Shown one piece after another: positions 3,683 to 31,878 of a DNA stretch of 33,110 bases (position 1 is the first letter of the stretch; every line of letters starts with the position of its first letter). Below the pieces are notes generated by a model. It ran no database searches and was not told where the DNA came from. It saw only the letters and a list, made by a program, of their open reading frames with translations. Both the position numbers and the translations under genes were made by a program. The DNA is from Bacillota bacterium. Lineage in GTDB: Bacteria > Bacillota > Limnochordia > DTU087. The stretch lies in contig JAAYQZ010000020.1 in NCBI GenBank assembly GCA_012519025.1, positions 1-33,110 on the forward strand. The letters are read 5' to 3'.

Positions 3683-3869
3683 AGCTAATCCCCTTTCTGT
3701 CTTTGTGTTCGATTCTGATACTTCGCCATGGATCTGGAGTACCTTTTTGGTGTATTTCATTGTGCGAAACTGCTGTGACTCCAATTGCCGTCATTTATCG
3801 CGGAGAAGGAAATATGAGACTCAACCGGAACATTTCATCAAATCATAGACTAGAAAGAGAGGCAAAGCA

Positions 3870-5009: not shown

Positions 5010-5023
5010 CCGAAACACCATAC

Positions 5024-5857: not shown

Positions 5858-6094
5858 TGTGCAGCCTCCTCTTTTCAGTGAGCAAACCAACTTGACTGTT
5901 AGATATATACAGAATGCAGGAACATCACCTGTGGTTACTGAATTCCCTTTACGAAACCAAATGTTGGACATCTCTTTCTTTTGCAACAATTCAACAATGA
6001 TACAGTTATTCTGGTTCCAGGTGCAGTTTCCCTACCAATTACCGGCATGTGCTTGCTTTTAGGGCAGCACCCTTATTTGAAAGGAGTGGTTTAT

Positions 6095-8122: not shown

Positions 8123-8140
8123 GTCACCCTTAATCAGCAT

Positions 8141-8176
8141 AAAAAAATGCCGCCGGGTATTTAAACCGGTGGCATT
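8141..8176. terminator. Bidirectional intrinsic terminator
   Basis: AATGCCGCCGG (8146-8156) pairs with CCGGTGGCATT (8166-8176), an 11-pair stem with one G-U pair and a nine-base loop. On the minus strand the stem is followed by seven T's, ideal for ending the isomerase gene at 8200-8982; on the plus strand a weaker CATACTTTCT follows for the gene ending at 8122. Confidence 0.85.
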
Positions 8177-8199
8177 CATACTTTCTATGAGCCCTACCT

Positions 8200-8982: not shown

Positions 8983-9149
8983 TCGAGTCATCCTCCCATT
9001 TTGTATATAATTCAAACCATTCATTCACTCTTTCGACAAACACCAAAATCCTCCTCCCGGATCAGTTTCTTCACCCACTTGTAGTTGCAATTACCCAGTT
9101 AATGGTATAAGTTGTTAATGCAATCTCAACTCAATCCACCGGTTGGAGA

Positions 9150-11309
9150 GTGAGCTTCCAAGTGAGAAATTACGCGGCCAAAGGGATGCCTTTGCTTCTG
9201 CTTACCCTTGCGGTTTTAGGCAATCTTTTCCCTATCAAGATATTCTTTGGATTTGATTGGTTCTGGGGAAGTATCGCTGTTTTGCTTTTGATCCGACATT
9301 ATAGTGCCTCTTTGGGTGCGTTGGGCCCCCTGGCGAGTTCCGCGGGGGCATGGTTTGGGGGCTGTAATTTTATAGGTGCCTTGGTGCATCTTGCAGAAAG
9401 TTTTTGGATACATCTGTCTTGGCATCGCACGAGGCGGAATATCGTTATCTTAGATTTCTTCTATTGGGCTGCAGTCGCGACTTTGGCAGTCATAGTCTAC
9501 ACATCCGGGAAAATTCAGCTTCATGTTCAGGCTTTTATATTCCTGCTGCTAAAACTGTCTGTGAACGGTTTGGTCAATGCCTTTGCCGCTGAGGCACTTA
9601 CCGTAATTGCCGGCTATTGCGGTGCCGAATCTTCAGGAAACCTTCCATCTTTGCAGAGAATGCTGTCTACGTTATTTATCGCTTTTATCTGCTTAAGTGC
9701 ACTGTCCCTCATCTCACTGGGGGGATGGCAGGAATTCCATCACACAGAATCAAGTGTGCTGAAGCAAATACAGATTACCCACGCGCGAGTTTCTTCTGCG
9801 GTTGAGCATGAGCTTTTGCGGCAAAGTAAAACAATAGGATCCCTCAGCAGTATCATAGAGACAATTATTGAAGAACCTGCCCTTATCCAAAATCATTTAG
9901 ACATAATACGTAAGAGCAATCCGCTGCTGGTACAGATTTTTGCAGCTGATAGTAAGGGACGAAGCCTGGCTTCCAGCCCTTCTTTGGATGAACAGGACCA
10001 TTCCGATATTGGCCTAAGCCTCGCTGATGGAGATTATTATCAAAACCTTTTGCAGACTAAAAAACCGGTGCTATCCGTAGTATCAGCTCTAAAACCCACT
10101 GAAGAGGCCGCCGTGCCTTTGATCTTATTTGCTTATCCATTGAATATCGCCACAGAAGGTGCTCGATCACCAACATATGCGGCAGGGTTGATTGATCCGG
10201 CCTTTGCACCGTCTGTTCTAATGCCCCTTGCCTGCAGTGGTGAAATGATTACCCTAGTCGATGAACACCATGGGGTAATTGCCAGCACCAACCCGCTGAT
10301 TCAGCCGGGGACCGGGTTTTGGGAAACGAAGTCCCGGGACTTTCACCATCAAATAGAGGACTCCGTGGAGCATTTCATACTCTTTCGTCGAGGACCTTTT
10401 TTAGAGCGCTGGCGGCATTCACGCTATATTTTGGATAAAGAGATCACCTTTGAAAACTTATCCTTACATGCTCCATGGCGCATCATCATCGAGCATTCCA
10501 TAACACCCCATGTCGAAGCGCTCTATGACTATTACAACTCCAGTCTAATGGGTCTACTGCTCCTTTTATTTGCCGCCGCCGTAGCTGCCTTACTTGGCTC
10601 TTATTGGCTGGGCAAACCTATTCGCATTTTGGCCGCCCTTACCCAGGGTTTGCCGGAAAAACTGCATCAAGACCAAGAAATACTTTGGCCCAAAGCCCGC
10701 ATTGTGGAGCAGGATGTCTTACTGAAAAATTATCAAGAGATGGCCACTGCCATCAACTTACACATAGAAGCAATTGATGCTTATGCGGCAAGGCTTGAGC
10801 ACTCTGTGCAAAGGGATGCTTTAACCGGCCTGTTTAACCGAACTGTCCTGCCGGAAAGACTGAGGACAGCCATTGAAAGGGCTCGCAACGCCAATTCATC
10901 CTTTGCGCTTTTGTTTATAGATCTCGACCGGTTTAAAACAGTCAACGACTTACATGGGCATGCAGCCGGTGACGCGGTGTTAGTTGAGGTTGCTGAACGT
11001 TTAACCGCGCACTCTAGTGAAGCATGCTGTGTGATCAGGCTTGGCGGAGACGAGTTTACTGTCCTATTAGAAAAAGCAGCCCATCAGACCGTTGTTGATT
11101 TCATCCGGCGATTTTTTGATTCCATGGAACGTCCCATAACTATCGCAGGAGCAGACATTGTGATTGACACCAGTGTGGGAATCAGCATCTACCCGCAGGA
11201 CGGAAATGATGCAGGTGTTTTACTAAAACGGGCAGATTCAGCCATGTACAGGGCCAAACAAGAAACCGGCAACACGTACTGTTTTTATGAAAGTCCGACA
11301 GATGACTAG
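9150..11309 (+). CDS. Membrane diguanylate cyclase with extracellular sensor domain
   Basis: The 719-aa protein should make c-di-GMP from two GTP in response to an external signal. Residues about 10-195 contain several hydrophobic helices (MASE-like membrane region). About 200-465 is an extracytoplasmic region with the look of a Cache-type sensor (HARVSSAVEHELL, FAADSKGRSLASS, AGLIDPAFAP, ITLVDEHHGVIAST). A membrane helix at about 470-490 precedes a HAMP-like linker and a GGDEF domain (DALTGLFNR, FIDLDRFKTVND, RLGGDEF ending at 636). The catalytic GGDEF is intact. The RxxD inhibitory site that often lies five residues before it is absent. The GTG at 9150 has a ribosome site crowded against it; GTG at 9162 is an alternative. 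The stop overlaps that of the convergent isomerase gene. Confidence 0.93.
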   Translation: MSFQVRNYAAKGMPLLLLTLAVLGNLFPIKIFFGFDWFWGSIAVLLLIRHYSASLGALGPLASSAGAWFGGCNFIGALVHLAESFWIHLSWHRTRRNIVILDFFYWAAVATLAVIVYTSGKIQLHVQAFIFLLLKLSVNGLVNAFAAEALTVIAGYCGAESSGNLPSLQRMLSTLFIAFICLSALSLISLGGWQEFHHTESSVLKQIQITHARVSSAVEHELLRQSKTIGSLSSIIETIIEEPALIQNHLDIIRKSNPLLVQIFAADSKGRSLASSPSLDEQDHSDIGLSLADGDYYQNLLQTKKPVLSVVSALKPTEEAAVPLILFAYPLNIATEGARSPTYAAGLIDPAFAPSVLMPLACSGEMITLVDEHHGVIASTNPLIQPGTGFWETKSRDFHHQIEDSVEHFILFRRGPFLERWRHSRYILDKEITFENLSLHAPWRIIIEHSITPHVEALYDYYNSSLMGLLLLLFAAAVAALLGSYWLGKPIRILAALTQGLPEKLHQDQEILWPKARIVEQDVLLKNYQEMATAINLHIEAIDAYAARLEHSVQRDALTGLFNRTVLPERLRTAIERARNANSSFALLFIDLDRFKTVNDLHGHAAGDAVLVEVAERLTAHSSEACCVIRLGGDEFTVLLEKAAHQTVVDFIRRFFDSMERPITIAGADIVIDTSVGISIYPQDGNDAGVLLKRADSAMYRAKQETGNTYCFYESPTDD

Positions 11310-12067
11310 GCCGTTTCCCAGGTTCTCTTTAAGAAATCTAAGGATCTTGCCGCTTCTTCCGGGAAGTTGTCCCACTTACACTCCACGGACATGCGGGCAA
11401 TGCAGTCTGTTTTCTTGATGTTTCGAAAAAATGATAAATAGTCATACATACCGCTGCCGGGCCACATACGCCCGGTGTCAGCAAGGTGCACGTGATAGAT
11501 CTTATCCTTATAAACAGCAACATTTTGCAGGGGTTCGTTACCCTCAACCATGTGATATAAATCGGCAGTAATACCCACAGCTTTGCTGGCGACCTGCTCG
11601 GCCAATCTAAATGCATCAGAAACGTAATTCAGCAAATTGCATTCAGCCTGTCTCAATGGCTCTATACCAACAACAAGATCATGGTGTTCGGCTTTTTGGC
11701 CGACCAATTTCCCGAAATCAGTTACCTGCCGTAAGGCTTCTGCCCGGGGGAAACCCGGGGGAACACTGCGGGAACGACCGCTGCCCAACACAATCACCTT
11801 TCCGCCCAATGCCGCTGCTCTGGGAAAAACTGTATCTAAGTAGATGTGTATCTGCTCATAATCTACTTCCGGTCCCACAATCTTCATCTCACCGGGAAGC
11901 AATACATTAAAAGCCTCCACTTGAAGATTCGATGCGGACACCGCTTTCCTAACGGCATCGTACTGTCTGTCGCCGGCAAGGCTTACCATTGTAAGCTCTA
12001 TGAAATCATAGCCCAATTCCTCAAGTAGACCCAGATTGTCAACTGTAGTGCACACACCCCAGCGCAT
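11306..12067 (-). CDS. Sugar phosphate isomerase/epimerase-type TIM barrel protein (4)
   Basis: The 253-aa protein is a xylose isomerase-like TIM barrel closest in look to the D-tagatose 3-epimerase/hydroxypyruvate isomerase group. Motifs are ELGYDFIELTM, KVIVLGSGRSR, VGIEPLRQAECN (Glu), ITADLYHMV (Asp), HVHLADTGRMWPGSG (His) and MSVECKWD (Glu). The start ATG at 12067 has GGAG seven bases upstream. It is the last gene of the minus-strand operon that begins at 15798, 20 bases after the glycoside hydrolase, so it probably acts on the sugar released by that enzyme. No terminator hairpin separates it from the convergent GGDEF gene; the two stop codons share CTAG. Confidence 0.88.
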   Translation of the reverse strand: MRWGVCTTVDNLGLLEELGYDFIELTMVSLAGDRQYDAVRKAVSASNLQVEAFNVLLPGEMKIVGPEVDYEQIHIYLDTVFPRAAALGGKVIVLGSGRSRSVPPGFPRAEALRQVTDFGKLVGQKAEHHDLVVGIEPLRQAECNLLNYVSDAFRLAEQVASKAVGITADLYHMVEGNEPLQNVAVYKDKIYHVHLADTGRMWPGSGMYDYLSFFRNIKKTDCIARMSVECKWDNFPEEAARSLDFLKRTWETA

Positions 12068-15900: not shown

Positions 15901-17577
15901 ATGAAAGAGTTGGTTATTGATGTTTTAGAAAAAGCTAGTTATCTGATGGAGTTAGCCGGAGAAAATTTCTTTAAGATCCGGGCTTTTCGCAATGCTATAA
16001 GGGCTTTACAGATGTCAAACGCTGAATTTGATGCTGTAGTGGCTGCTGACGGACTGAGAGAGATCCCTGGTATCGGTGCCGGGATCGAGGAAGTGATCTT
16101 AAGTATTGTCAAAACCGGTACAGCCGATATTTATGAAACACTGCAGCAAAGAGTCCCTATTGGCCTGCTGGAATTATTTAAAATTCCCGGCCTGGGTGCA
16201 AAGCGAATCCGGCGACTTCATGAAGAATTGGACATTACAAACCTTGGTGAGCTGGAATATGCCTGTGAAGAAAATCGGCTTTTGACCCTACCTGGATTTG
16301 GTGAGAAAAGTCAAGCAAATATATTGAAAGGAATCAGTGAACTCAACAGCTATAAAGGCTCCTTTTTGTATCCAACAGCATACGCGGCTGCCCAGGAATT
16401 GCTGGCGGAGATCCGCCTGTTGAGGCCTTTTAGATGCGAACTCACTGGTGCACTGCGTCGCGCTGTAGAGATTGTCGGTCAGATAGAGATTTTAGCAGCA
16501 GGCATCTCCCCTAAACAAATATTGTCAGAACCTAATATATTCCTGCTTGAACCAAAGGAAGAGAAAAACACCATAACCGGACAAACACGGGGCGGCATCC
16601 CCGTGATCCTGCATTTTTCTGATGCGGCACGATGGGGCACAGATTTGATACTAACGACAGGTAACAAACTGCACTTAGATTATTTACTCTCTTTGGCAAA
16701 AACAAAATCTGCCTCAACAAACCAACCATACCTCCCTGAAAAGCCGGAAGAGGCAGATGTATACAATGAGCTGGGATTGGACTTCATTCTGCCGGAATTA
16801 AGGGAAGGGCTGTTTGAAGTGCCCTCCGATGAAGGCAGAAAAGTTTCCTTTCCACAGCTGGTCACCCATGCGGATTTTAAAGGTGTGTTTCATGTCCACA
16901 CAACATACAGCGATGGGATTGCGACTTTGGAGGAAATTTCGCAACACGGTCGCACACTGGGCTACAGCTATGTGGGAATTGCCGACCACAGTCAATCTGC
17001 CTTTTATGCCAACGGTTTAAAGCGAGATGATCTGCTTAGACAAATGGCGGAGATCGGGCAGATTAATGCTGAAAACCCGGATATAACTTTGTTGAAGGGC
17101 TTGGAGGTAGATATCCTGTCTGACGGCAGTTTGGATTGTGATGACAACCTATTGAAAAAACTCGATTATGTGATAGCATCTGTCCACAGCAATTTTAGAA
17201 TGTCGGAAAAAGACATGACCAATAGAGTGATCAAGGCCCTATCAAACCCGCACGTGACTATGCTTGGGCATCCAACAGGTAGACTGCTTTTGGCCCGTCG
17301 GCCCTACCCCATTGATCTTGATAAAGTAATCGAGGCCTGTCACAAGTACCAGGTCGCCATAGAGATTAATGCCAGCCCCCGCCGACTGGATTTGGACTGG
17401 CGCTGGGCTCGCAAAGCCTATGAAAAAGGTGTAATGCTGGTAGTAAATCCTGATGCACATCGTCTGGCCGGCTTTGCACATACTCAATATGGTATCAACG
17501 CAGCCAGAAAAGCCGGTCTGCCCAAAAACGCCCTACTAAATACCCGGGAATTGGGTGAGTTTAAATGGAAAAACTGA
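15901..17577 (+). CDS. polX: PolX-family protein: PHP nuclease domain intact, polymerase active site degenerate
   Basis: The 558-aa protein has the full PolX layout: helix-hairpin-helix repeats (IPGIGAGIEE, IPGLGAKRIRRL, LPGFGEKSQANI) in the first 150 residues, a polymerase X core and a C-terminal PHP domain from about 328. PolX normally fills gaps in base excision repair and degrades 3' ends. The PHP metal motifs are complete: HVHTTYSDG, GIADHS, GLEVDIL, ASVHSNF, GHPTGRLL, EINASPRRLDLDW and NPDAHR. The polymerase carboxylates are not: the usual GDIDI reads GQIEI near 192-197, and the V-D-L-R strand reads VILHF near 234-238. It may therefore act only as a PHP nuclease or phosphatase. ATG follows a long GGAGAGGAGAAGGG site. 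It overlaps the next gene by 13 bases. Confidence 0.92.
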   Translation: MKELVIDVLEKASYLMELAGENFFKIRAFRNAIRALQMSNAEFDAVVAADGLREIPGIGAGIEEVILSIVKTGTADIYETLQQRVPIGLLELFKIPGLGAKRIRRLHEELDITNLGELEYACEENRLLTLPGFGEKSQANILKGISELNSYKGSFLYPTAYAAAQELLAEIRLLRPFRCELTGALRRAVEIVGQIEILAAGISPKQILSEPNIFLLEPKEEKNTITGQTRGGIPVILHFSDAARWGTDLILTTGNKLHLDYLLSLAKTKSASTNQPYLPEKPEEADVYNELGLDFILPELREGLFEVPSDEGRKVSFPQLVTHADFKGVFHVHTTYSDGIATLEEISQHGRTLGYSYVGIADHSQSAFYANGLKRDDLLRQMAEIGQINAENPDITLLKGLEVDILSDGSLDCDDNLLKKLDYVIASVHSNFRMSEKDMTNRVIKALSNPHVTMLGHPTGRLLLARRPYPIDLDKVIEACHKYQVAIEINASPRRLDLDWRWARKAYEKGVMLVVNPDAHRLAGFAHTQYGINAARKAGLPKNALLNTRELGEFKWKN

Positions 17578-18142: not shown

Positions 18143-19201
18143 TTAGGTCTGTCCAAACTCATAACCTGCCTCATACATGGCCACAATATTTTCCGGTGGG
18201 CTTACTGCCTGGATATTGTGGCAGGGTGCCAGAATATAGCCGCCGCCAGCCCCCAAAATACGGATATTTTCCTGCACTTCTTGGCGAACATCATCCACAC
18301 TGCCAAAAGCTAAAGTAGTTTGATTGTCCATGCCCCCGTGAAAAATCAAGGATTGACCAAAATCCTTTTTCAGACCTTCCCGATCCATACCGCGGCAGCG
18401 CCATTGGATGGGGTTGAGGATGTCGATCCCAAGCTCGATCATATCCGGTATGATTTCTCTTATAGCGCCGTCATTGTGATGGAAAACATACGCTCCCGCC
18501 TCATGGGCCAAATCTATGATCCGCTTCATACGGGGCAAAAGAAACTCGTGGATTTGAGCGGGTGAAAACAAAAGATTCTCCTGTGTACCCATATCTTCTG
18601 CCACATAGGTCAACATCACTTTGTTGGGAATTTCTTCATATATGCGCAAAGTATTGATGTAGCAAAGCTCAAAAAGCTTATCCAGGCAGTAATTTACAAT
18701 TTCAGGATACAAAATGAGATCCATTAAGGCCTGCTGTTGACCCCGTAAGTGGCAATATGTCAAAAATGGCTCAGAGCCGCCTCCCCGAATAGGCCAATGA
18801 TCATCCCAGGCTTCAACTTGTTTTTTTATGTGGGCATAATCATACCAATCAGGACTCGGCCAGCGATATTCTGACTCGATTTCCCGAACACTTTGATATT
18901 TGGCCAAGGGATTATATACACATTCGCTGTAGATTCCACTGCCGTAATCTATATCCCTGTACCTAACACCAAAGGCATCTTCGTCTTTGGCTAGAGGAGG
19001 ACCTACATAGCGGGGCCCGACTCCCATGACCTTATCGATATTAAGCCGTTTGTACATTTCCTCTTCCGTTGAGCAGCCTAAGTAACTCATCAAATTATGG
19101 GTTGCTTCCGGTGTAGCCCAATAATCCATGGGCATGTGATCAACTTTTTCCCGTTTCAATACCTTCAGCCATCGTTCCCTTGGTGTCAATTGGTCAGTCA
19201 T
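18143..19201 (-). CDS. URO-D-fold protein (uroporphyrinogen decarboxylase / corrinoid methyltransferase superfamily)
   Basis: The 352-aa protein has the TIM-barrel fold shared by uroporphyrinogen decarboxylase and methylcobamide:CoM methyltransferases such as MtaA. It begins TPRERWLKVLKREKVDHMPMD, a common start for the non-HemE members. FHHNDGAIREIIPDMIELGID near 240 and GGYILAPCHNIQAVSPPEN near 327 occupy the metal-site regions; the His-x-Cys seen in MtaA is His-x-Asn here, while the later Cys is kept. ATG at 19201 is favoured, as GGAGG is seven bases upstream; the ATG two codons earlier touches that site. It overlaps the alpha-mannosidase gene by eight bases. It is unlikely to be a heme enzyme, since no heme gene is near; a link to sugar catabolism is inferred from the operon. 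Confidence 0.85.
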   Translation of the reverse strand: MTDQLTPRERWLKVLKREKVDHMPMDYWATPEATHNLMSYLGCSTEEEMYKRLNIDKVMGVGPRYVGPPLAKDEDAFGVRYRDIDYGSGIYSECVYNPLAKYQSVREIESEYRWPSPDWYDYAHIKKQVEAWDDHWPIRGGGSEPFLTYCHLRGQQQALMDLILYPEIVNYCLDKLFELCYINTLRIYEEIPNKVMLTYVAEDMGTQENLLFSPAQIHEFLLPRMKRIIDLAHEAGAYVFHHNDGAIREIIPDMIELGIDILNPIQWRCRGMDREGLKKDFGQSLIFHGGMDNQTTLAFGSVDDVRQEVQENIRILGAGGGYILAPCHNIQAVSPPENIVAMYEAGYEFGQT

Positions 19202-21698
19202 TTCCATCCCTCCGGCCTTTTGAAGTCATGCGTTCTATTAGATCCACCTCGATCGGCCCCTCACCTAAAGAGCTGTTGACAAGGAAAGACTTGATCTCAA
19301 AAGGTTCAAAGGAACTGTCCCATGTATAAGCCCCTTGATCCCATGAGAAAGTGCATCTGGTACTATGTCCATTTGCTTCATAGGCCCGCACGATGAACCC
19401 ATCTTCATCTTCGGACTCTTTAACAGCTGATACGACAATATTTTCGGAAGATACATCCAAACCTGTGTAACATGTCGGCAGTCTGCCGGGGTGATTGTGT
19501 TCCTCCAAAACCAACATAGGAGCATTCAGTTCCAAAGCCAATCTAGGGGCATTCGCCGTCTGCCACTCACCTTTGTGAGGAACCAACCTGTAAGTAAATT
19601 CTTGAACCCCTTGATCGGTATAATGGTAAAACCCCTTCGGCTCGACCTCCCTGGGCAAATGGTGGGCATATACAGGACTGCGTAAAACTGTAAGACGCAT
19701 CACACTGTCTGCCACATCACTACTGTATTTCGCGTCATTTAAAATCGCTAAACCTTGTTGGCCGCTTTCCCCCGGTATCTGACCGCTCACATCAAACCAA
19801 TTTAAGCTTGGTTCTTCTTTACCATCTGTCGGGCGAGTTATGGCTCCAAATTGAATTTCATATGTAGCCTTGGGTTGTCTGACATTAACGGGAAACTCAA
19901 GCTTTAAAGCCTTCTGTTTTTCCCGCCAATCCACTATAGTCTTAACGTCAACATAAGGCAGATCAACGTACAGCGTAAATTCCTGCACAATCCTCGACCG
20001 TTCAAAATGGCTTGTAGCCCTGATTATGCCTCTTACAGGCCCTGTCTCCACAACTTCTAATTGTGCATCGGTAAATCGTCCAATTTCGTCATGGAAATGA
20101 AACACTCCGTGGCTCCATGTGTCGCTGGGATCGTCCATCACCACTGGCACACCGGCCGGACCACTAAAAATCTCCCGGCAGGAGGGTTTCGCCGTCATCT
20201 GTTTTATGTATCCGGTGCGTCTTTCGAGCTCCAGTTTGAGGTGTGCATTTTCTAAAACAGTTTCCCCAACCTTTACCCCTTGTGCTGATTTTGCGGTGGA
20301 TTTGCGCGGGTGCAGCCAATACACGGCATAGCCCAAAGCAGGCACATCAGCAACAAAAGTCAACCCTCGGCGCCATCCGGACCAGATTACCGATGAAATT
20401 TCTATGTTTTGTAAAGATATCTCATTGCCGCGGTGATCAGTTAGGGCCATTTCCCCGGGTTCCCACATCAATTCAAGCCTAACGGCGGCTTGCTGCCGAT
20501 GGGCATGGGGATTCCAAACTATAATGGGAGTGCCTTTGTGAGATGTATCAATCTCAGCGGCCAGTGCCTGCAGTGCTAAATTGGCTGTTTCATCAGCTGT
20601 ATGTAAGGCAAAGCCGTGCATATGGTTAGCATCAACATAAGCCTCCCGTATTGATGTTCCGGGAAGAATATCATGGAAATGATTAAATAAAACTCTCTTC
20701 CAAGCCCGATTGAGCTGCTTTTGGGGGTAAGGATAGCCAACAAGATTGTTTGCCACGCTGGAGATCTTTTCGGCGCGGCACAACCCATGTTCCGCTTTGC
20801 GATTGTTTTGTTTTATTCGGGAATGAGCAGCATAACAGCCGCTGGCATGGTGCTGCAAATCGTCTTTAACAACGGGGAAATCTATATTTTCCTTTTCCAA
20901 CTGGGTGAAAAATCGATTGGGATCACTGAACAATATGTCGATATCGCTTTCCCGTGCAGCTGTTTGAATACTGTTTAAGTTTTCTTTGGTAGGCCCTCCA
21001 CCATGATTGCCGACACCATAGAAACACATTAAAAGGGGCTGCCTTTGATCGAGTTCCTTAACAGAGTCATTTATCTTCTTAACTAACTCATCGCCATAGC
21101 CCGCTGCTTGATAAGAATATGGAATCTGGTAAGCCAGTACCCGGCTTCCGTCGGGGCCCTCCCACTGGAAGATCCTGCCGGGAAGTTCCGGTTTTTCATG
21201 GGGCCCGGGCCGCATAAATACATAATAATCTTGACCGCTTCCTTTTAAAATTTGGGGCAAAGAAGCGCTGTGACCGAAGCTGTCAACATTATATCCTACG
21301 GGCACCTTGATCCCAAACTTTTCTTTAAAGTATCGCAAGCCGTAAAGTGCCTGCCGCACCATTCCTTCACTGCCGGGTACATTGCAGTCAGCCTGTACCC
21401 ACCAACCGCCTGCGATAACCCAGCGACCTTCATCTACCCGCAGTTTTATTTCCGCAAAAAGCTTGGGATCACACCTTTCAGTATACTCATACATAGCCGC
21501 TTGACTGGAGGTAAATATAAACCCTTCTGTCTCTTCCAACCGATCCAAAGCTGAGCGGAAAGTTGCCCTCAGGGCACCGAGTCCCTCAGGCCACTGCCAG
21601 AGCCAAACAGGATCTAGATGGGCGTTGCCGATCATATGAAGCTCCTGTTTGGTCTTGGGAACTCCCACTTCAGGCATACTTCCAGTTAGATGTTCCAT
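19194..21698 (-). CDS. GH38 alpha-mannosidase
   Basis: The 834-aa protein is a glycoside hydrolase family 38 alpha-mannosidase, a zinc-dependent retaining exo-enzyme that removes alpha-linked mannose. NAHLDPVWLWQW at 25-36 carries the zinc-binding His and Asp; NVDSFGHS at 137-144 carries the nucleophile Asp139; FYGVGNHGGGPT and FNHFHDILPGTS complete the active site. The C-terminal half is the usual beta-sandwich (YVDVKTIVDWREKQKALKLE). There is no signal peptide, so it acts in the cytoplasm on imported glycans. The start ATG at 21698 has GAGG six bases upstream. It sits between the MFS transporter gene (37 bases upstream) and the URO-D-fold gene in one operon, which suggests uptake followed by hydrolysis. 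Confidence 0.95.
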   Translation of the reverse strand: MEHLTGSMPEVGVPKTKQELHMIGNAHLDPVWLWQWPEGLGALRATFRSALDRLEETEGFIFTSSQAAMYEYTERCDPKLFAEIKLRVDEGRWVIAGGWWVQADCNVPGSEGMVRQALYGLRYFKEKFGIKVPVGYNVDSFGHSASLPQILKGSGQDYYVFMRPGPHEKPELPGRIFQWEGPDGSRVLAYQIPYSYQAAGYGDELVKKINDSVKELDQRQPLLMCFYGVGNHGGGPTKENLNSIQTAARESDIDILFSDPNRFFTQLEKENIDFPVVKDDLQHHASGCYAAHSRIKQNNRKAEHGLCRAEKISSVANNLVGYPYPQKQLNRAWKRVLFNHFHDILPGTSIREAYVDANHMHGFALHTADETANLALQALAAEIDTSHKGTPIIVWNPHAHRQQAAVRLELMWEPGEMALTDHRGNEISLQNIEISSVIWSGWRRGLTFVADVPALGYAVYWLHPRKSTAKSAQGVKVGETVLENAHLKLELERRTGYIKQMTAKPSCREIFSGPAGVPVVMDDPSDTWSHGVFHFHDEIGRFTDAQLEVVETGPVRGIIRATSHFERSRIVQEFTLYVDLPYVDVKTIVDWREKQKALKLEFPVNVRQPKATYEIQFGAITRPTDGKEEPSLNWFDVSGQIPGESGQQGLAILNDAKYSSDVADSVMRLTVLRSPVYAHHLPREVEPKGFYHYTDQGVQEFTYRLVPHKGEWQTANAPRLALELNAPMLVLEEHNHPGRLPTCYTGLDVSSENIVVSAVKESEDEDGFIVRAYEANGHSTRCTFSWDQGAYTWDSSFEPFEIKSFLVNSSLGEGPIEVDLIERMTSKGRRDGND

Positions 21699-24682: not shown

Positions 24683-24712
24683 ACCTCCTTTGCCACCCCT
24701 ACCTCCTTTGCC
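24677..24712. repeat. Exact tandem duplication of an 18-bp unit
   Basis: ACCCCTACCTCCTTTGCC occurs twice in direct succession (24677-24694 and 24695-24712). On the minus strand each unit contains AAAGGAGGT, the full Shine-Dalgarno consensus, followed by TAG. The second copy (24695-24712) contains the last codons and the stop of the MGMT-like gene. No start codon at a useful distance follows either copy. Confidence 0.85.
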
Positions 24713-25205
24713 TAAGGCTTTTAATGTCATGTCCTTCATGGATCAACAATTTTTCTCTCAAAAACCCTGCACCGCTTCGACATACTCCTATACCAGCCTG
24801 GGGCAATACCCGGTGGGTGGGAATAAAGTAAGCAACAGGGTTTTTTGATATGGCACTGCCTACAGCCCGCGCCCCTCCCGGTTTTCCCAATCGCACTGCC
24901 AGATCTTTGTAAGTTTTTATAGACCCGGCAGGAATTTGTCCAACAGCATCAAAAACAGCCCGTTGAAAAGGCGTGAAAGCCGTAAGATCCAAAACCATAT
25001 TGTGGCTGCCGGTCTGCAAAAAGTTTACTGTCTCATTTATGAGCATGTTGATCATGGGGTCAGAGGGTTTAAATTCAAAATAGCTCCTCAGGTTGATTAT
25101 ACTGTGTTCACCGTTTCCAAGAGCCAGATATTCCAACCCCAATGCCGAAAAAGCCGCACTTAGTGTATCGGTTTCTAAAAACTCTATAATTTGCTCAATC
25201 AACAC
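24699..25205 (-). CDS. MGMT homologue with catalytic Cys replaced by Thr
   Basis: The 168-aa protein has the two-part layout of O6-methylguanine-DNA methyltransferase: an N-terminal half of about 80 residues and the C-terminal DNA-binding domain (TPFQRAVFDAVGQIPAGSIKTYKDLA, GGARAVGSAISKNP). The active-site motif, normally P-C-H-R, reads IPTHRV; the codon is ACC, so the alkyl-accepting Cys is absent. Alkyltransferase-like (ATL) proteins also lack this Cys, usually having Trp or Ala, and flag lesions for nucleotide excision repair. This protein may act in that way, or the gene may be decaying. GTG start at 25205 has GGAGG seven bases upstream. It lies 28 bases behind a second MGMT-like gene that keeps the Cys. 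Confidence 0.88.
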   Translation of the reverse strand: MLIEQIIEFLETDTLSAAFSALGLEYLALGNGEHSIINLRSYFEFKPSDPMINMLINETVNFLQTGSHNMVLDLTAFTPFQRAVFDAVGQIPAGSIKTYKDLAVRLGKPGGARAVGSAISKNPVAYFIPTHRVLPQAGIGVCRSGAGFLREKLLIHEGHDIKSLRQRR

Positions 25206-25233
25206 CGTAAAACCTCCGGATGACTAAGATCGC

Positions 25234-25542
25234 TTACCATCCATGTTCATCCATATCGATCCGACCGTTGTTTAAGAATGTTATCCCCTCTTCTTCAAGC
25301 AAGCGGCGCTGATTCTCCTTGCCGCCGAAAATACCCCCGGGTGCCAGTCTTCCATCTTGGTACACCACCCTGTGGCAAGGGAGGTTGCGTTCCCGCGGGG
25401 CACTGCTCATAGCATAACCAACAATCCTAGCTGCACGAGGGTTCCCAAGCATCATAGCAATTTGGCCGTAAGTATAGACTTCTCCTGAAGGGATCTGTTC
25501 TACAATTTCATATACTTTTTCAAAGAAATTGCTTTTGCTCAT
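25234..25542 (-). CDS. Short MGMT-family protein with intact PCHR motif
   Basis: The 102-aa protein is only the C-terminal DNA-binding domain of the O6-alkylguanine methyltransferase family: VYEIVEQIPSGEVYTYGQIA, PRAARIVGYAM and LPCHRVVYQDGRL. The alkyl-acceptor Cys is present in PCHR. Proteins of this size are usually annotated as MGMT/ATL-like; whether they transfer alkyl groups without the N-terminal half is unclear. ATG at 25542 has a poor ribosome site (AGGGG about 13 bases upstream). It is the first of two adjacent MGMT-like genes, so the pair forms a small DNA-repair operon. Confidence 0.9.
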   Translation of the reverse strand: MSKSNFFEKVYEIVEQIPSGEVYTYGQIAMMLGNPRAARIVGYAMSSAPRERNLPCHRVVYQDGRLAPGGIFGGKENQRRLLEEEGITFLNNGRIDMDEHGW

Positions 25543-25683
25543 TTTTATATAATACCCCTACATCGCTGCCATAACCTGCATGGGAACAAATTCCCGTTCC
25601 CTTCAAGGCCGGCATTTTAGATCTCTTATATCTTGTATTCCTTACATGCGATGCCTCACCTGCAAGCCATCTGCAGTGGACAC

Positions 25684-25712
25684 TTAAAATGCCCTGATTG
25701 CTGTGGTATAAT
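25684..25712 (+). promoter_or_regulatory. Extended -10 promoter for the isomerase gene
   Basis: TGGTATAAT (25704-25712) is a perfect -10 box with an extended TGN element. The -35 box is weak (TTAAAA at 25684-25689, 17-base spacing). The start codon lies 35 bases downstream. Confidence 0.5.
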
Positions 25713-25746
25713 CGAATCAGTTGGAATTATACGGGAGGGTGTTAAA

Positions 25747-26622
25747 TTGCGACTATCTACTTCAACTAACATTTACGAAAAAGTTTGTTGGGGCAAAGAA
25801 GTGGTCCTTACCTGCGAGGACAGTATCACGGTTTGCTATAATGCAGGTTACCGAGTGCTGGATATGAACTTTGCCACCTACTCTAGAGGGACTTTGCCCA
25901 TGACTCAACCTGATTGGGAAGACTGGGTGAAACGTCAGAAGGAACATGGTGATTCCTACGGAATTGAGTTTTCGCAGGCCCATGCTCACTTCTATAACTG
26001 GGAAGGATTAACCGAAGAGGAAAAGCAGTGGAACGAAGAGTTAATCAGAAGATCCATTATCGGAGCTGGGTTAATGGGAGCAAACTGGCTTGTGATCCAT
26101 CCCGGCTCCGTAAAGGACGGGATTTGGTATTCACACGCCAAATCTTTAAAGATCAATGTAGAGGTCTTCAAAAAATATGGAGAGCTTGCTGCAAAGCACA
26201 ATGTTGGCATAGCCATTGAAAACATGATTGAAAGCGAAAATGCCCGCCGGTATGCCAGTTCCACAGAAGAGCTTTTAGAGCTAATTGACGTTTTAGACGA
26301 TCCACTCTTTGGGATATGCTGGGATTTTGGCCACGCCCATATGGCCGGAGTAAATCAAGTGGAGGCTTTAAAAGCCGTCGGCAAACATCTCAAAGCCATC
26401 CATGTGGCAGATAACCACGGCAAGAGAGATGATCACACAGCACCCTACTTCGGCACCATCGTTTGGGAACCGATTATGAGGGCTTTAACAGAAATAGGGT
26501 ATGAAGGCGATTTCACCTATGAGATACATAACTTCACCAACGGGCTGCCTCGGGGCATGCAAGAAACCGCCATCCGCTTCAGTTATGAATTGGGTATGTT
26601 TATGCTGAGCCTGGCCAAATAG
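25747..26622 (+). CDS. Sugar phosphate isomerase/epimerase-type TIM barrel protein (5)
   Basis: The 291-aa protein is a fifth xylose isomerase-like TIM barrel, away from the other four. Segments are IEFSQAHAHF, NWLVIHPGS, GIAIENMIE (Glu), GICWDFGHAHM (Asp and His), KAIHVADNHGKRDDH and FTYEIHN (Glu). The start is TTG at 25747, with GGGAGGG eight bases upstream; the frame is open to 25633, but that part contains the promoter. It is a single gene, divergent from the MGMT-like pair and convergent with the signalling operon. Substrate unknown. Confidence 0.87.
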   Translation: MRLSTSTNIYEKVCWGKEVVLTCEDSITVCYNAGYRVLDMNFATYSRGTLPMTQPDWEDWVKRQKEHGDSYGIEFSQAHAHFYNWEGLTEEEKQWNEELIRRSIIGAGLMGANWLVIHPGSVKDGIWYSHAKSLKINVEVFKKYGELAAKHNVGIAIENMIESENARRYASSTEELLELIDVLDDPLFGICWDFGHAHMAGVNQVEALKAVGKHLKAIHVADNHGKRDDHTAPYFGTIVWEPIMRALTEIGYEGDFTYEIHNFTNGLPRGMQETAIRFSYELGMFMLSLAK

Positions 26623-26633
26623 GGTGCTGGCCA

Positions 26634-26655
26634 AAAAGGCTTTCAGTCCGCCTTT
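26634..26655 (-). terminator. Terminator of the c-di-GMP-controlled signalling operon
   Basis: On the minus strand AAAGGC-GGACTGAAA-GCCTTT is followed by further T's (TTTTTGG). The stem overlaps the last codons and the TGA of the phosphatase gene. It ends the five-gene operon that starts at 31610. Confidence 0.65.
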
Positions 26656-27806
26656 AAGACCATAAGACTAATATCATCTGTTTGCATTTGACAGTGCTTC
26701 ATCACAGCGTTGACGAGACTATCACAAATACCGTCAGCGCTGTATTCTTTGTATTTCATCACAGTCCTTGCAATACCCCTCACCCCAAATGCCTGTTCAT
26801 GTTCGTTTCTGGCGTCTGAAAGTCCGTCAGTGAAAATGACCAGAATGTCGCCGCTGTCCAGTTTGACGCTGTGGCTTTGGTATTGGGCATCACTGCGACC
26901 GCCAAGGGCGATACCGTTCCCAGGCAAAACCCCTGATTTTCCTGCAGAACGTCTATAGATGACCGGTGGATTGTGGCCGGCGTTGGCATAGATGAGGGCT
27001 TTATGTACAGGGCTGTAGACACAATAAAACTGAGTCACAAAAGCCTGTACATCGGCTATTTCCCTAGTGAACTGTTTATTTAAAGCGGTTAAAATCTGGT
27101 GGGGAGGATTCATATCCTTGGCGAGCAGCCTAAATATTGTGCGAGCCATCAACATCAAAAAAGCTCCGGGCACCCCCTTACCCATGGCATCTGCCACCGT
27201 CAATCCAACACTATCGTTTGGATAGGTAAGTATATCGAGGTAATCTCCACCTAATTCATGGGCAGGTAGTGTGCGATAGGACAGAAAATTTTTACCTCCC
27301 AGTACGTCTAAAGGCGGCATTAACTGCCGTTGAATGAATTGCGTACTTTCCAATTCCCGTGCTACACGATTGGGCATGGGAGAGTCCTTCAAAACAATCA
27401 CATCAAAAAGCACCGTAAGCCGCGAACATAAGTTTTCCAGAAAGGCCATATCTGTATTTGAAAAGGGTAAAACCGACCAAAGGATAACAGCATTGTGGGA
27501 ATGGGTACCCCACAATGCCTCTGCCCGATAATAAAGACCACGGTGAAAACCACTAAAAGATCCGCGGGTGCTGAACACATGATCAGCTAATTCTTGATCC
27601 TTTTGAATCAGGTTTTCTCTGGATTCTTGCTGAAAAAATACTATTCGGGAAGCTGCGTCTCTAACATTAGGATGAGCCGACCATACACTAATTGCAAACA
27701 GGCCGAGCTCTTTCCCCAAATGTTCGCCCAGTACTGTGTAAGGGTCTTGGGACATTAAACATTTTTCATAGAGTTCTATCGCAAGATCTGGTACGGGAAC
27801 TGTCAT
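26643..27806 (-). CDS. SpoIIE/RsbU-type PP2C protein phosphatase with N-terminal GAF-like domain
   Basis: The 387-aa protein ends in a PPM-type serine phosphatase domain from about residue 155: HELGGDYLDI, TVADAMGKGVPGAFLM, YANAGHNPP, VIFTDGLSDARN and TDDISLMVL hold the metal-binding Asp residues. The first 150 residues look like a GAF-type sensor domain. There are no membrane segments. In partner-switching systems this enzyme dephosphorylates a STAS anti-anti-sigma factor so that it can bind the kinase; such a STAS protein and kinase are encoded in the same operon. ATG at 27806 has AGGAGG six bases upstream. It is the last of five genes, nine bases after the HD-GYP gene. Confidence 0.93.
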   Translation of the reverse strand: MTVPVPDLAIELYEKCLMSQDPYTVLGEHLGKELGLFAISVWSAHPNVRDAASRIVFFQQESRENLIQKDQELADHVFSTRGSFSGFHRGLYYRAEALWGTHSHNAVILWSVLPFSNTDMAFLENLCSRLTVLFDVIVLKDSPMPNRVARELESTQFIQRQLMPPLDVLGGKNFLSYRTLPAHELGGDYLDILTYPNDSVGLTVADAMGKGVPGAFLMLMARTIFRLLAKDMNPPHQILTALNKQFTREIADVQAFVTQFYCVYSPVHKALIYANAGHNPPVIYRRSAGKSGVLPGNGIALGGRSDAQYQSHSVKLDSGDILVIFTDGLSDARNEHEQAFGVRGIARTVMKYKEYSADGICDSLVNAVMKHCQMQTDDISLMVLKAD

Positions 27807-27815
27807 GGTATCCTC

Positions 27816-28826
27816 CTAAATCGAAGGGCCATCAAGCTTTCGCTTAACGAAATAGGTCATTTTTTGCAAGAGATCAACGGTATACCCCGGTTCCACTTTG
27901 TGTCCGTACATGTTTTGTTCTATCCGCACCACGGGCCGTGTAGGGAAGCCCTTGTTGGAACCAACAACCACCCCTGATTCACCGGTATTCAACTCCACCG
28001 GGGTTCCGACAGGATAAAACGAAACACATTTAATAAACCGCCTAATACATTCAGGATCAAATATCTCACCGCTTTTCCCCATTAAATATTCAATCACTTC
28101 TTCCATGGGATAGCGATTATTTGCCGAAAGGCGATCAAATACATTCGCCACGTGGATAATTCTTGCAAACTCATTGATTTCAGTCTGCTCAACTCTTCCG
28201 GGATAACCCGCCCCATCCCAACGTTCATGGTGATGTAATACGGGCTTTAACACAGCTGGCTCAACGGAACTTTTGCCCAAAAACTCCACACCTGCTTCCA
28301 CATGCTGCCTTGCTTGGTCTTCTGGCACGAACAAGTACCCAATATCATGCAAAAGCGCTGCCAAGGCCAACATCCGCAGGTCACTGCGGGGGTAATCGTA
28401 TTCGATGCCAAGGAGTACAGATAGAATTGCCACATTCACCGAATGACTGAAAAGTTCTTCATCAAAGGAACGCAGATCAACCAAATTAATCATAACATTA
28501 TCTTGGAGAAGAAGCTCATCAATGACTTTAATTAGAACCTCGTTTACCTTTTTTATCTCAAGATCCGCCCCGCCTTTAACTTGGGAAAGCACCTCCCGCG
28601 TTCCCGCTATGGCCTGCAGGCGAGTTTCATCACTTATAATGTCCTCAGCAACTACGTCCCGTCCGGTAGAGATATAGACTGCGGCAAAAGGATATTTCTT
28701 TAAATATTCTATATATCCTGCAGTTAGTGTGACACCTTGTCTCAGCAACACCTGACCCTGGTTTCCAATAATGGTTTTCCCCAGCACCATACCCGGTTCC
28801 AACTCATCTATGGAGACAATTTGCAA
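27816..28826 (-). CDS. HD-GYP domain protein, probable c-di-GMP phosphodiesterase
   Basis: The 336-aa protein has an N-terminal region of about 110 residues of the DUF3391-like type (LEPGMVLGKTIIG), an HD-GYP domain at about 115-260 and a C-terminal beta-rich tail (GVVVGSNKGFP). HD-GYP enzymes degrade c-di-GMP. The motif HHERWDGAGYP at about 200-210 is canonical. LLHDIGY at about 156-162 keeps the HD pair but has Tyr for the usual Lys, and HVANVFDRL near 225 has Asn where a metal-ligand Asp is usual (VADVFDAL). Activity is therefore probable but not assured. The start is TTG at 28826 with GGAG eight bases upstream. It is in the operon behind a c-di-GMP riboswitch, which suggests feedback. Confidence 0.9.
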   Translation of the reverse strand: MQIVSIDELEPGMVLGKTIIGNQGQVLLRQGVTLTAGYIEYLKKYPFAAVYISTGRDVVAEDIISDETRLQAIAGTREVLSQVKGGADLEIKKVNEVLIKVIDELLLQDNVMINLVDLRSFDEELFSHSVNVAILSVLLGIEYDYPRSDLRMLALAALLHDIGYLFVPEDQARQHVEAGVEFLGKSSVEPAVLKPVLHHHERWDGAGYPGRVEQTEINEFARIIHVANVFDRLSANNRYPMEEVIEYLMGKSGEIFDPECIRRFIKCVSFYPVGTPVELNTGESGVVVGSNKGFPTRPVVRIEQNMYGHKVEPGYTVDLLQKMTYFVKRKLDGPSI

Positions 28827-28859
28827 AGTCTCATCTCCTCACCTGTAAACACCCGGAGT

Positions 28860-29369
28860 TTACCCGGATTTTAAATCAGAACAAAGCACCAGTTTAGTCC
28901 CTCTACTTGATGTGCACAGGACAATTTCCCTAAAATACTGCATCATCACGAAAAATCCCGCACCCAGGGACGCAGTTGTGGAAAAACCTTTGCGAAAGAA
29001 TTTACACATTGGGCAATCAGGATGAAGTCCCTTTCCGCGATCAATCACATGGAAACGCGGCCCGACAGCATCAATATAGACTGATAGTGCCCCACCGGGT
29101 GTGTGCTTAACAACATTAGTAACTGCTTCAGTCAGGGCTAATAGAATTCGGGCACGTGCGGGATCTTTCCATAGAGAGAGGCGTTCTTTCAAATATTCGT
29201 CAACTAAATGGCGGGTGAGGGTAACATCGCTTTGCCCCCGAATAGGGAACATTACCACAGGCTTCTGTCGACCGTAGCGAGCTTCATATTCTTCGTGATC
29301 GATTATAATGACAGTACACTGTTCCCCGTTTGCAGATAATTCCTTCGAAGTGCCGCAACTACAACCCAT
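28860..29369 (-). CDS. RsbW/RsbT-like HATPase (anti-sigma factor-type serine kinase)
   Basis: The 169-aa protein has the GHKL ATP-binding fold of RsbW/SpoIIAB/RsbT kinases. EAVTN at 81-85 is the N box, DRGKG at 110-114 the G1 box, and STTASLGAGF (130-139) with SSRGTKLVL form the ATP lid and last strand. Such kinases phosphorylate a STAS partner or sequester a sigma factor or other target. Unusual Cys residues occur (MGCSCG at the start and CPMC at 119-122), which could hold a metal or respond to redox state. ATG at 29369 follows AGGAAA. The STAS gene lies directly upstream and HD-GYP downstream. No sigma factor gene is in the window, so the final target is unknown. Confidence 0.88.
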   Translation of the reverse strand: MGCSCGTSKELSANGEQCTVIIIDHEEYEARYGRQKPVVMFPIRGQSDVTLTRHLVDEYLKERLSLWKDPARARILLALTEAVTNVVKHTPGGALSVYIDAVGPRFHVIDRGKGLHPDCPMCKFFRKGFSTTASLGAGFFVMMQYFREIVLCTSSRGTKLVLCSDLKSG

Positions 29370-29412
29370 TTTCCTGCCCCCCGGCTGACTTCTTGTTGAT
29401 TATGGAAATTTT

Positions 29413-29718
29413 CTACCCTACCCCCATGATCTCCCTCACACCAATCAATGCAAGAATTTCCTCGATTTCGGCATTGTTGTTGTCTATGCTAACTGGGATA
29501 TCGCGTTTAGCAAATACCTTGTAGTAACCAATCAATTGGCCAATGCCGGTGGAGTCAATGAAATTCAAGCCATCCAAGGAAAAGGTGATATCGACAAGAT
29601 CGCGGGATTCGATTTGCTCCATAACTTGCTCCAAGATACTGCCTGTTGCCATATCCAATTCCCCCTCCAGGGCCAAGATTACGTGAGGGGGATTTTGGGC
29701 TATTTTCACTTTCAGCAT
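29413..29718 (-). CDS. STAS-domain anti-anti-sigma factor
   Basis: The 101-aa protein is a single STAS domain like SpoIIAA/RsbV. The phosphorylation site FIDSTGIG is present, with Ser56 as the predicted phospho-acceptor. In partner switching the unphosphorylated form binds the HATPase kinase and frees its target; the kinase phosphorylates it and the PP2C enzyme resets it. All three components are in this operon. ATG at 29718 is chosen because GGAG is seven bases upstream; a longer frame to 29754 would overlap the preceding FapA-like gene, whereas this start leaves an 11-base gap. Confidence 0.93.
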   Translation of the reverse strand: MLKVKIAQNPPHVILALEGELDMATGSILEQVMEQIESRDLVDITFSLDGLNFIDSTGIGQLIGYYKVFAKRDIPVSIDNNNAEIEEILALIGVREIMGVG

Positions 29719-29729
29719 ATTGACACTCC

Positions 29730-31610
29730 TCATCTCCACTCTTCTTGTGTCCATCTACCATCTTCAAACCGGAGTTCTATATTGCGCCTTTTCTCACTGA
29801 TACCCAGCTTTGCCCGACCTATGGCAAGGTAAGTGCCGGGGTGTAAAGTTCTTGCCCTGATCACCCCTCCTTCATCCACGGAAAGGAAGGTTTTAACTGT
29901 TTCATTTAGTCCGGCGGAATTAACTGTAATCGACGATGCTGCAAAGTAGGAGCCGCCTCGACAAGAGCCGGTTATGGTAATGTGAGAACCGGCGGTCATA
30001 GTACATCCATAGACTGAAGGCCCGGTAACCACGATACTGCCTGTAGCCTCTAAAGTGGCATTTTGGCAATAATAAACCTTAATATCTGCCGGAGTGCTGA
30101 AGAAGTCATCTAGATAACTACAGACTTTTTCCAGACAAGCTAGGCAGGTATCCAATTCCGTCACACATTTAATGTTTAAGGGATTGGCTCCAACAAAACG
30201 TTCGCTAGCAAGGTGTAAAATATCCCAAACTTCGGCCAAATCGCTTTTGCTGCCGACTCCATCCCCTGTAGGCAAAAGTTTTTGGAGACTCTGACACAAA
30301 TTGGGGATGTTGGCAAAACGCATTTCTAAGATAAGTTTGAGTAAGTAGCCGTCTCCTCGCAATCTTAAATCGTCTATTGAAAAGCACGGTTGTGCTCTAA
30401 CTTGCAGGAATGCCTTTTGCAAGCTTTGTATTTCAGGGATAATTCGCCTTAAAAGGGCTACAATTTTCATGTGGTTTACTATTTCGCCACCTGCGCTGAC
30501 GCGGCCGCCAATCAGGTTCTTCTGTATGAACACGCTGCTGCCGGCAGTAAGATTGGCGTGATGTACACTGCCTTTTATCTCTGCAAGCCCCCCGGCTCTA
30601 ACACTCAACGATTCGGTAACATTGCCGGTGACAATCACATCTCCGGTGAATTCAATATTACCGGTGCCCACATCCACATCGGAGTAGATAACCAGCTCCG
30701 GTCTTACACACAGCCGTCCCCGCTCAAAGCACGGTCGGCCGGCAATATCTGCTACTGCGATGGTTCCTCCGCTAATGAGGCGGACACCCGATCCGACTAA
30801 AAAAGAAGCATGTTTAGGCTTTCTGGGTTCAATTGTTCTGCCGAAGACATCTGTCCCGGGCTTGCCTTCTACAGGCGGATGCCAATAACCCAATACCTCT
30901 CCGGCTTCAACGGAATTGATCCGGCCCCGATCCAATAAATCAACCCTATCGCTATCTTCGATCAGTATTTTCGTTGCCTTAAGATCGCAGGCCAGTTCGA
31001 TTCTGCCGTCCACGGGTGGTTTAGGAGGAATTCCAACTCCTATCAAGGTGCGGCAACTACTGCCCCTTGCGCAGGCCAGCACAACTTGCTCTGCATACAA
31101 TTCAGCTTTTATGCCCTGCCTTTCAGCTTCTGCAAACACTTCTGTTTCAACGATGGGTTCCGGAGGATATCGATAAACCTCCCGGGCCGCTGCAATTAGA
31201 TCTTCAACAGGCCCACTGTCATTGAGGTCATATTCTATCCCCGCCGCTGACTCAATTTTCAACCAAACTTCCATGTTATCTTTGGAAACACTGACATGGA
31301 AAGAGCTGTGGGGTGGTTCTTGTGTGATTTGAAAATCTATATCTCGAACGTCCTCTACAACAATTGGTCGTTCTGCGGGCTTTCCTTTGTATAAAACTCC
31401 CACCCGCCCGTCCTTACTTGATGTAATGGTAGGCCACTTACCGCCGGGACCCGGTTTTTCCATGACCAGCTCTCCGTTTACAATGGCAAGTGTACCATTT
31501 TTCCCCAGCGGCTTTGATTCACTTCCCTGCTGTTGCACACCGCTTTGACTTACTGATTTTTTCAGCCATTCATGCATGAGTTCCGTCAAATTAGAATCTC
31601 TTCCCGGCAT
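29730..31610 (-). CDS. FapA/DUF342-family protein, first gene of the c-di-GMP-controlled operon
   Basis: The 626-aa protein belongs to the FapA (flagellar assembly protein A, DUF342) family. Typical segments are PVEGKPGTDVFGRTI near 240 and a right-handed beta-repeat region from about 315 (VIYSDVDVGTGNIEFTGDVI, GLAEIKGSVHHANL, GSSVFIQKNLIGG). This is followed by a helical insertion and a second set of repeats (ATLEATGSIVVTG, GSHITITGSCRGG). The N-terminal 110 residues may be a separate beta domain. No signal peptide or membrane helix. The family is poorly understood; in Vibrio a member links the sugar PTS to flagellar assembly. ATG at 31610 has GGAGGG five bases upstream. It is preceded by a c-di-GMP-I riboswitch, pointing to a role in motility or biofilm switching. 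Confidence 0.88.
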   Translation of the reverse strand: MPGRDSNLTELMHEWLKKSVSQSGVQQQGSESKPLGKNGTLAIVNGELVMEKPGPGGKWPTITSSKDGRVGVLYKGKPAERPIVVEDVRDIDFQITQEPPHSSFHVSVSKDNMEVWLKIESAAGIEYDLNDSGPVEDLIAAAREVYRYPPEPIVETEVFAEAERQGIKAELYAEQVVLACARGSSCRTLIGVGIPPKPPVDGRIELACDLKATKILIEDSDRVDLLDRGRINSVEAGEVLGYWHPPVEGKPGTDVFGRTIEPRKPKHASFLVGSGVRLISGGTIAVADIAGRPCFERGRLCVRPELVIYSDVDVGTGNIEFTGDVIVTGNVTESLSVRAGGLAEIKGSVHHANLTAGSSVFIQKNLIGGRVSAGGEIVNHMKIVALLRRIIPEIQSLQKAFLQVRAQPCFSIDDLRLRGDGYLLKLILEMRFANIPNLCQSLQKLLPTGDGVGSKSDLAEVWDILHLASERFVGANPLNIKCVTELDTCLACLEKVCSYLDDFFSTPADIKVYYCQNATLEATGSIVVTGPSVYGCTMTAGSHITITGSCRGGSYFAASSITVNSAGLNETVKTFLSVDEGGVIRARTLHPGTYLAIGRAKLGISEKRRNIELRFEDGRWTQEEWR

Positions 31611-31675
31611 GTAATCCCTCCATTAAAAGAAAATACTTTCCACCAGCAGCGAAGCAACGGTGAAAAGCACCTTCT

Positions 31676-31755
31676 TGCAACTGGCTGGCATACACATTGC
31701 TGTGCTTAGCCCCTTTAGCTTTGCGTCCCAAGGTTTCCCCGGTTTGCCGAAATAT
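31676..31755 (-). promoter_or_regulatory. c-di-GMP-I (GEMM-I) riboswitch aptamer
   Basis: Read on the minus strand, the conserved core appears in order. GGCAAACC (31748-31741) leads into a hairpin CCGGGGAAACCTTGG (31742-31728) with a GAAA-type loop. GACGCAAAGC (31727-31718) follows, then GGGGCTAAG (31713-31705), a hairpin CACA-GCAA-TGTG with a GNRA loop (31704-31693), and ATGCCAGCCAG (31691-31681). This is the GEMM-I pattern, which binds c-di-GMP. It is followed by 65 bases to the FapA-like start. There GGTG-CTTTT-CACC and an alternative CACC...GGTG pairing before a T-rich stretch (TATTTTCTTTT) share the CACC segment and could form the switch. Whether c-di-GMP turns expression on or off cannot be read. 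Confidence 0.88.
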
Positions 31756-31878
31756 TTAATTGGCGGGATTATCCCCCATGAACCTCATCAACTTAAACAT
31801 TCCTGCAATAACTAGATAAATCCTTTTAAAAATGCCGGATTTCACGATTAATCCTTTGATTTCAAGATTACCCAGATT

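Follow-up and report, generated by a model that had tools for sequence, protein, structure and literature searches.

A 33,110-nt stretch of DNA, the whole of contig JAAYQZ010000020.1 from one metagenome-assembled genome of a Bacillota bacterium of the class Limnochordia (98.6% complete, 2.66% contamination) and here called the window, carries on its minus strand a cyclic di-GMP (c-di-GMP) riboswitch followed by five closely packed genes. These encode FapA, a STAS protein, a HATPase, a divergent HD-GYP protein and a PP2C phosphatase. The arrangement is probably a c-di-GMP-repressed signalling operon, in which an OFF riboswitch governs FapA together with a partner switch and the HD-GYP protein. 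The individual parts are known, and the combination seems new: in the open-access literature, outside which the original GEMM papers lie, no account was found of a system joining FapA/DUF342 to a riboswitch or a partner switch to a c-di-GMP riboswitch. The initial annotation of the window, made from the sequence alone, likewise knew of no description of this exact gene order behind a c-di-GMP riboswitch.

The aptamer (31673–31758, minus strand) is the sole Rfam match in the whole window: RF01051, the c-di-GMP-I or GEMM-I class, at 31758–31673 with E = 1.4e-11. It covers the full model (1–87) and scores 68.4 bits against a gathering score of 35 bits, so the minus-strand GEMM-I aptamer first recognised by its motifs is confirmed by covariance search. 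In the RF01051 alignment it retains GGCAAACC and UUGC, which we take to be the ligand-contacting G20 and C92 (Vc2 numbering); a G20A change would suggest the cyclic GMP-AMP (cGAMP) variant of the c-di-GMP-I riboswitch. Between the aptamer and the FapA start lies a strong hairpin with a U-tract, absent from the initial annotation, which forms an intrinsic terminator (about 31676–31625, minus strand; hairpin core CUUUUCACC...GGUGGAAAG, then UAUUUUCUUUU). A hairpin and U-tract directly follow the aptamer in nearly all Limnochordia-type FapA leaders, the exceptions being those of genomes G037 and G027; the G056 leader is masked. Clear sigma-A boxes stand upstream of the G037 and G027 aptamers. The possibility that the aptamers share a conserved upstream promoter was considered and rejected, as the sigma-28-like TAAG-N15-GGGGATAA of the window is not common to other leaders.

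The five genes behind this leader, all on the minus strand, each have their best family match above the Pfam cut-off (FapA_N with FapA, STAS, HATPase_c, HD_5/HD and SpoIIE). FapA comes first (29730–31610, 626 aa, of the riboswitch-linked clade), with both its FapA_N domain (PF20250, 98.5 bits) and its FapA beta-solenoid (PF03961, 90.2 bits) above the cut-off. It is followed by a STAS protein of the anti-anti-sigma type with a DSTG phosphorylation motif (29413–29718; PF01740), a SpoIIAB/RsbW-like HATPase as putative switch kinase (28860–29369; PF02518), the divergent HD-GYP protein (27816–28826; HD_5, 72 bits) and an RsbU-like, SpoIIE-type PP2C phosphatase with an uncharacterised N-terminal domain (26643–27806; PF07228, 160.7 bits). 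The tight spacing originally noted, with gaps of 11, 43, 33 and 9 nt, is correct given a STAS start at 29718; the longest STAS open reading frame begins at 29754, overlapping FapA, and the start at 29718 agrees with all orthologues (MLxV...). The RF01051 match, the Pfam assignments and the conserved gene order together uphold the claim of a c-di-GMP riboswitch in front of one operon with a complete STAS/HATPase/PP2C switch. The terminator claimed for the end of the operon fares worse, being by eye just a short stem poor in guanine and cytosine (AAAGGC...GCCTTT) that overlaps the PP2C stop and is unlisted by the terminator scan.

Judged by motifs and predicted folds, the partner-switch core looks intact. 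The STAS protein finds SpoIIAA and RsbV as its PDB matches, and its Asp-Ser-x-Gly motif is invariant across 13 STAS sequences. The AlphaFold model of the HATPase (predicted local distance difference test score, pLDDT, 77) has SpoIIAB (1til, E = 9.8e-6) as its best PDB match, with a SiaB-SiaC structure also among the fold-search matches. Its ATP-site motifs EAxTN, DxGxG and GxGF are invariant among orthologues, as are the PP2C catalytic motifs GGD, D-x-MG (DAMG), DG (TDG) and DD. Cys pairs in the window HATPase, considered as a redox or metal site, are not kept in the orthologues and were set aside.

The same layout is conserved in the class, for which 73 genomes were compared with a PP2C alignment as the query for orthologues; close PP2C orthologues occur in 13 of them. 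The order FapA-STAS-HATPase-HD-GYP-PP2C, which the initial annotation had proposed to look for in related genomes, is present in 10 other genomes or records (G033, G052, G054, G056, G057, G061, G062, G065, G067 and record DUTM01000097), and the contigs of G058 and G055 end inside HD-GYP-PP2C. Every five-gene locus with its 5' end on the contig has a c-di-GMP-I aptamer directly upstream of FapA. A FapA profile search shows a clear score gap between 23 high-scoring genes, which make up the riboswitch clade when the fragmented G035 gene is counted, and roughly 55 lower-scoring ones. Scored by eye from coordinates and among the matches listed, an aptamer lies upstream of 19 of the 21 testable riboswitch-clade genes (both exceptions in G016), upstream of one of the roughly 55 lower-scoring genes (G015), and, in about 18 genomes of the class, no more than about 2.5 kb ahead of fliF. 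Besides the window aptamer, the same genome has two c-di-GMP-I RNAs, one before a flgB-flgC-fliE-fliF-fliG operon and one before an operon of cheW and a methyl-accepting chemotaxis protein gene, in agreement with the motility context suggested at the outset; this RNA class thus marks motility genes here. Presence of a flagellum does not serve as a discriminator, with fliF in 71 of the 73 genomes. In several relatives c-di-GMP-I aptamers occur in tandem, with a spacing of about 190 nt, as at about 1151–1435 in locus L225 (G006:C13), where genes for a small exported protein and a Wzz-like protein follow.

When named genomes were scanned for relatives of FapA, a second version of the locus emerged in the Bacilli; here FapA stands beside STAS and PP2C, again with a c-di-GMP-I aptamer. 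The aptamer precedes a gene for an HD-GYP-HATPase fusion in all six Bacilli genomes with the upstream region of the fusion on the contig, and PP2C, FapA and STAS come after the fusion in five of the six. In Anoxybacillus calidus the aptamer is followed by DUF5317, a 695-aa protein carrying HD_5 and HATPase_c_2, PP2C, STAS, FapA and STAS, and in Halalkalibacter and Halalkalibacterium by the fusion, a HAMP protein, PP2C, FapA and STAS; Brevibacillus has DUF5317 and a STAS in addition. The Peribacillus locus consists of the fusion, a HAMP protein, STAS and PP2C without FapA, in A. vitaminiphilus the fusion is broken and a gene is inserted, and in Ornithinibacillus and Virgibacillus an aptamer also lies, from coordinates alone, some 2.3 kb ahead of the HATPase. 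The joining of the two domains in one Bacilli protein directly supports joint action of HD-GYP and switch kinase. The DUF5317 membrane protein is the first operon gene in the Bacilli version (L102, L106, L222), and no mention of DUF5317 was found in the open-access literature searched.

The direction of the switch is suggested by a competing pairing in the leader. The aptamer 3' segment CCAGUUGC (31677–31684, minus strand), the proposed first antiterminator strand, pairs at 7/8 positions with GCUGCUGG (31643–31650, minus strand), the proposed second strand, in the loop/3' half of the terminator. The pairing is present in the minimum free energy structure of a 120-nt nascent prefix of the window leader, which is predicted to adopt the antiterminator fold at -36.8 kcal/mol; the predicted fold of the full leader consists of aptamer-like helices and the terminator. 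Complementarity between the terminator 3' half and the aptamer 3' end is also found in G035 (CCAGCCAG with CUGGCUGG) and in G061 (AGCUGCA with UGCAGCU). In 12/12 FapA leaders, a nascent prefix shows more pairing between aptamer 3' end and terminator than the shuffle mean. Because the ligand stabilises the aptamer, termination is modelled as c-di-GMP-induced, and an OFF switch is the best model for the window riboswitch. At high c-di-GMP the GEMM-I aptamer would fold and retain its 3' strand, the terminator would form and the operon would be off; at low c-di-GMP, in the motile state, the aptamer 3' strand would pair with the terminator 3' half and allow read-through. Expression would yield FapA together with all parts of a partner switch: the SpoIIAB-like kinase would phosphorylate the STAS protein and the PP2C phosphatase would take the phosphate off. 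The divergent HD-GYP protein would more likely sense c-di-GMP or tune the kinase than act as a robust phosphodiesterase, and the output would be FapA itself or a sigma factor whose gene lies elsewhere.

Several observations weigh against a c-di-GMP-repressed operon of this kind. Taken singly, each leader gives a modest antiterminator signal (7/30 shuffles equal the window), and the duplex loses hardly any strength when partners are exchanged between leaders; as a test of covariation the exchange carries no information, given how little the aptamer strand varies. A search upstream of the window aptamer gave no good sigma-70 promoter. The window genome is a metagenome-assembled one, and its family relatives lack the operon, a PP2C orthologue being present in none of the 10 searched. 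FapA stands alone in about half of the riboswitch-FapA loci, which makes the partner switch an optional addition to a riboswitch-FapA core.

In the initial annotation, the HD-GYP protein was taken for a functional phosphodiesterase through which the operon forms a feedback loop. With an OFF switch, such feedback would be positive and not homeostatic: an active enzyme would set up a double-negative, bistable loop in which low c-di-GMP leads to more phosphodiesterase. This is conceivable but rather unlikely. Alignment to the phosphodiesterase PmGH shows that seven of the eight metal ligands are present in the window protein, with D305 replaced by N228; of the catalytic pair D183/K225, the Asp is kept (D122) and the Lys is replaced by Y164, and the KPGKL loop is deleted. 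An active enzyme would fit the retention, in 11/11 orthologues, of the six metal-binding His/Asp of the HD and HH motifs and of the GYP motif (save Y to F), with Glu or Asp at the E185 position; against it, the K225 position is lost in 8/11 (Tyr in the window) and the D305 position is Asn in 7/11, the window included. Activity of PmGH is abolished by K225A and strongly reduced by D305A (PMC4159591); the residual activity of the latter speaks for an active enzyme. The nearest fold to the window model (pLDDT 72) is Bd1817, an unconventional HD-GYP, and Asn stands at the D305 position in two of the three Bacilli fusions read, two findings that argue against an active enzyme. With Lys and Asp replaced, the loop gone and the corresponding PmGH mutants impaired, phosphodiesterase activity of the window protein is doubtful and the claimed loop loses its footing; a sensing role appears at least as likely.

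The target of the partner switch may lie outside the operon, which contains no sigma factor or other known partner-switch target gene. The genome has three SigB/F/G-type sigma genes elsewhere, one in a sigF context, one in a sigG context and one orphan, and the classical spoIIAA-spoIIAB-sigF operon is separate; a sigma target in trans is therefore possible, and with it a sigma or anti-sigma output. The orphan sigma factor (264 aa, G000:C65:2546-3340), with no anti-sigma gene adjoining, is a candidate. A tentative alternative is that the partner switch acts on FapA and not on a sigma factor, in which case c-di-GMP would act twice, on synthesis through the RNA and on activity through the catalytically impaired HD-GYP, which in the Bacilli is fused to the kinase, and a FapA assembly would be under a non-transcriptional switch. 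FapA-STAS adjacency is kept in both lineages, the Limnochordia-type and the Bacilli. At 3923–10368 of an HGW-Firmicutes-8 locus (L089), a PP2C with PAS domains, FapA, STAS and HATPase lie in a row, with no riboswitch at Rfam thresholds; the FapA-STAS-HATPase linkage thus also exists outside riboswitch control.

As to direction, it is improbable that the riboswitch is an ON switch, through which c-di-GMP would promote read-through and the operon would belong to a sessile programme. Both kinds of c-di-GMP riboswitch occur in C. difficile (PMC6200980), and the leader energies are predictions only; however, the aptamer adjoins the terminator without overlap and the sole competing pairing found draws on the 3' strand of the aptamer itself, an arrangement that speaks for termination upon ligand binding, and the C. 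difficile flgB riboswitch has the same OFF logic (PMC6200980). It is very unlikely that the riboswitch serves FapA alone and that STAS, HATPase, HD-GYP and PP2C are neighbours with their own promoters: many relatives do have a riboswitch and a lone FapA, but the window gaps are 9–43 nt, FapA and STAS genes overlap in orthologues, no recognisable minus-strand promoter lies at the STAS 5' end, and in the Bacilli the riboswitch precedes the HD-GYP-HATPase gene with FapA coming later.

The FapA operon (26643–31610) and PolX (15901–17574) of the window are most similar to those of a different family in the class; PolX has 59% identity to that family against about 40% within its own. In tetranucleotide signature and GC content the window resembles the remaining contigs of its genome, and foreign-like genes in a host-like composition suggest that operon and PolX were horizontally acquired, which is likely. 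A mis-binned contig, with the association belonging to another organism, would account for the PolX identities and for the missing PP2C orthologues in the family, but is very unlikely, being unsupported by composition, and the association is present in other genomes whatever the binning. Elsewhere in the window, several xylose-isomerase-like TIM-barrel genes (2876–12067 and 25633–26622), together with an alpha-mannosidase-like protein (19194–21698), a major facilitator superfamily transporter and a sulfatase, mark a sugar-degradation region unrelated to the riboswitch operon. Two short side-by-side open reading frames at 24699–25542 resemble methylated-DNA cysteine methyltransferase domains.

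Known systems resemble the operon in part. Like Cdi-1-3 of C. difficile, which lies before the flgB operon, the window riboswitch combines an RF01051 aptamer, a terminator-based OFF logic (inferred here) and a motility link in the genome; unlike Cdi-1-3, it precedes FapA and a phosphorylation partner switch and not flagellar structural genes. The DSxG STAS, SpoIIAB-like kinase and SpoIIE-type phosphatase, with their motifs conserved, are those of the RsbU-RsbV-RsbW and SpoIIE-SpoIIAA-SpoIIAB modules, whereas the window operon is without a sigma gene, lies behind a c-di-GMP riboswitch and includes FapA and a divergent HD-GYP. HsbR-HsbA-HsbD and SiaABCD of Pseudomonas are partner switches tied to c-di-GMP and to motility or biofilm, and act on a diguanylate cyclase; to our knowledge they have no riboswitch, FapA or HD-GYP. 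The HD-GYP protein shares the HD and GYP motifs and most metal ligands with PmGH and Bd1817, with the fold nearest the latter, and departs from PmGH-type phosphodiesterases in its catalytic Lys, one metal Asp and the missing loop. FapA of Vibrio vulnificus is linked to the flagellum, according to a title cited in PMC8789113. The window protein belongs to the same FapA family, and the connection is one of domain family alone. We know of no riboswitch or STAS partner for the Vibrio vulnificus protein.

Three layers of signalling, namely an RNA switch for a second messenger, a partner switch based on Ser phosphorylation and an HD-GYP protein, are linked at this locus to FapA, which is widespread and has no clear role. 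The same functions stand behind one riboswitch class in two bacterial classes, with differing gene orders and one fusion, in what looks like a recurring signalling module. The system is testable, with culturable Anoxybacillus, Brevibacillus and Halalkalibacter among its carriers, and it suggests that HD-GYP domains can serve as c-di-GMP inputs to anti-sigma-type kinases.

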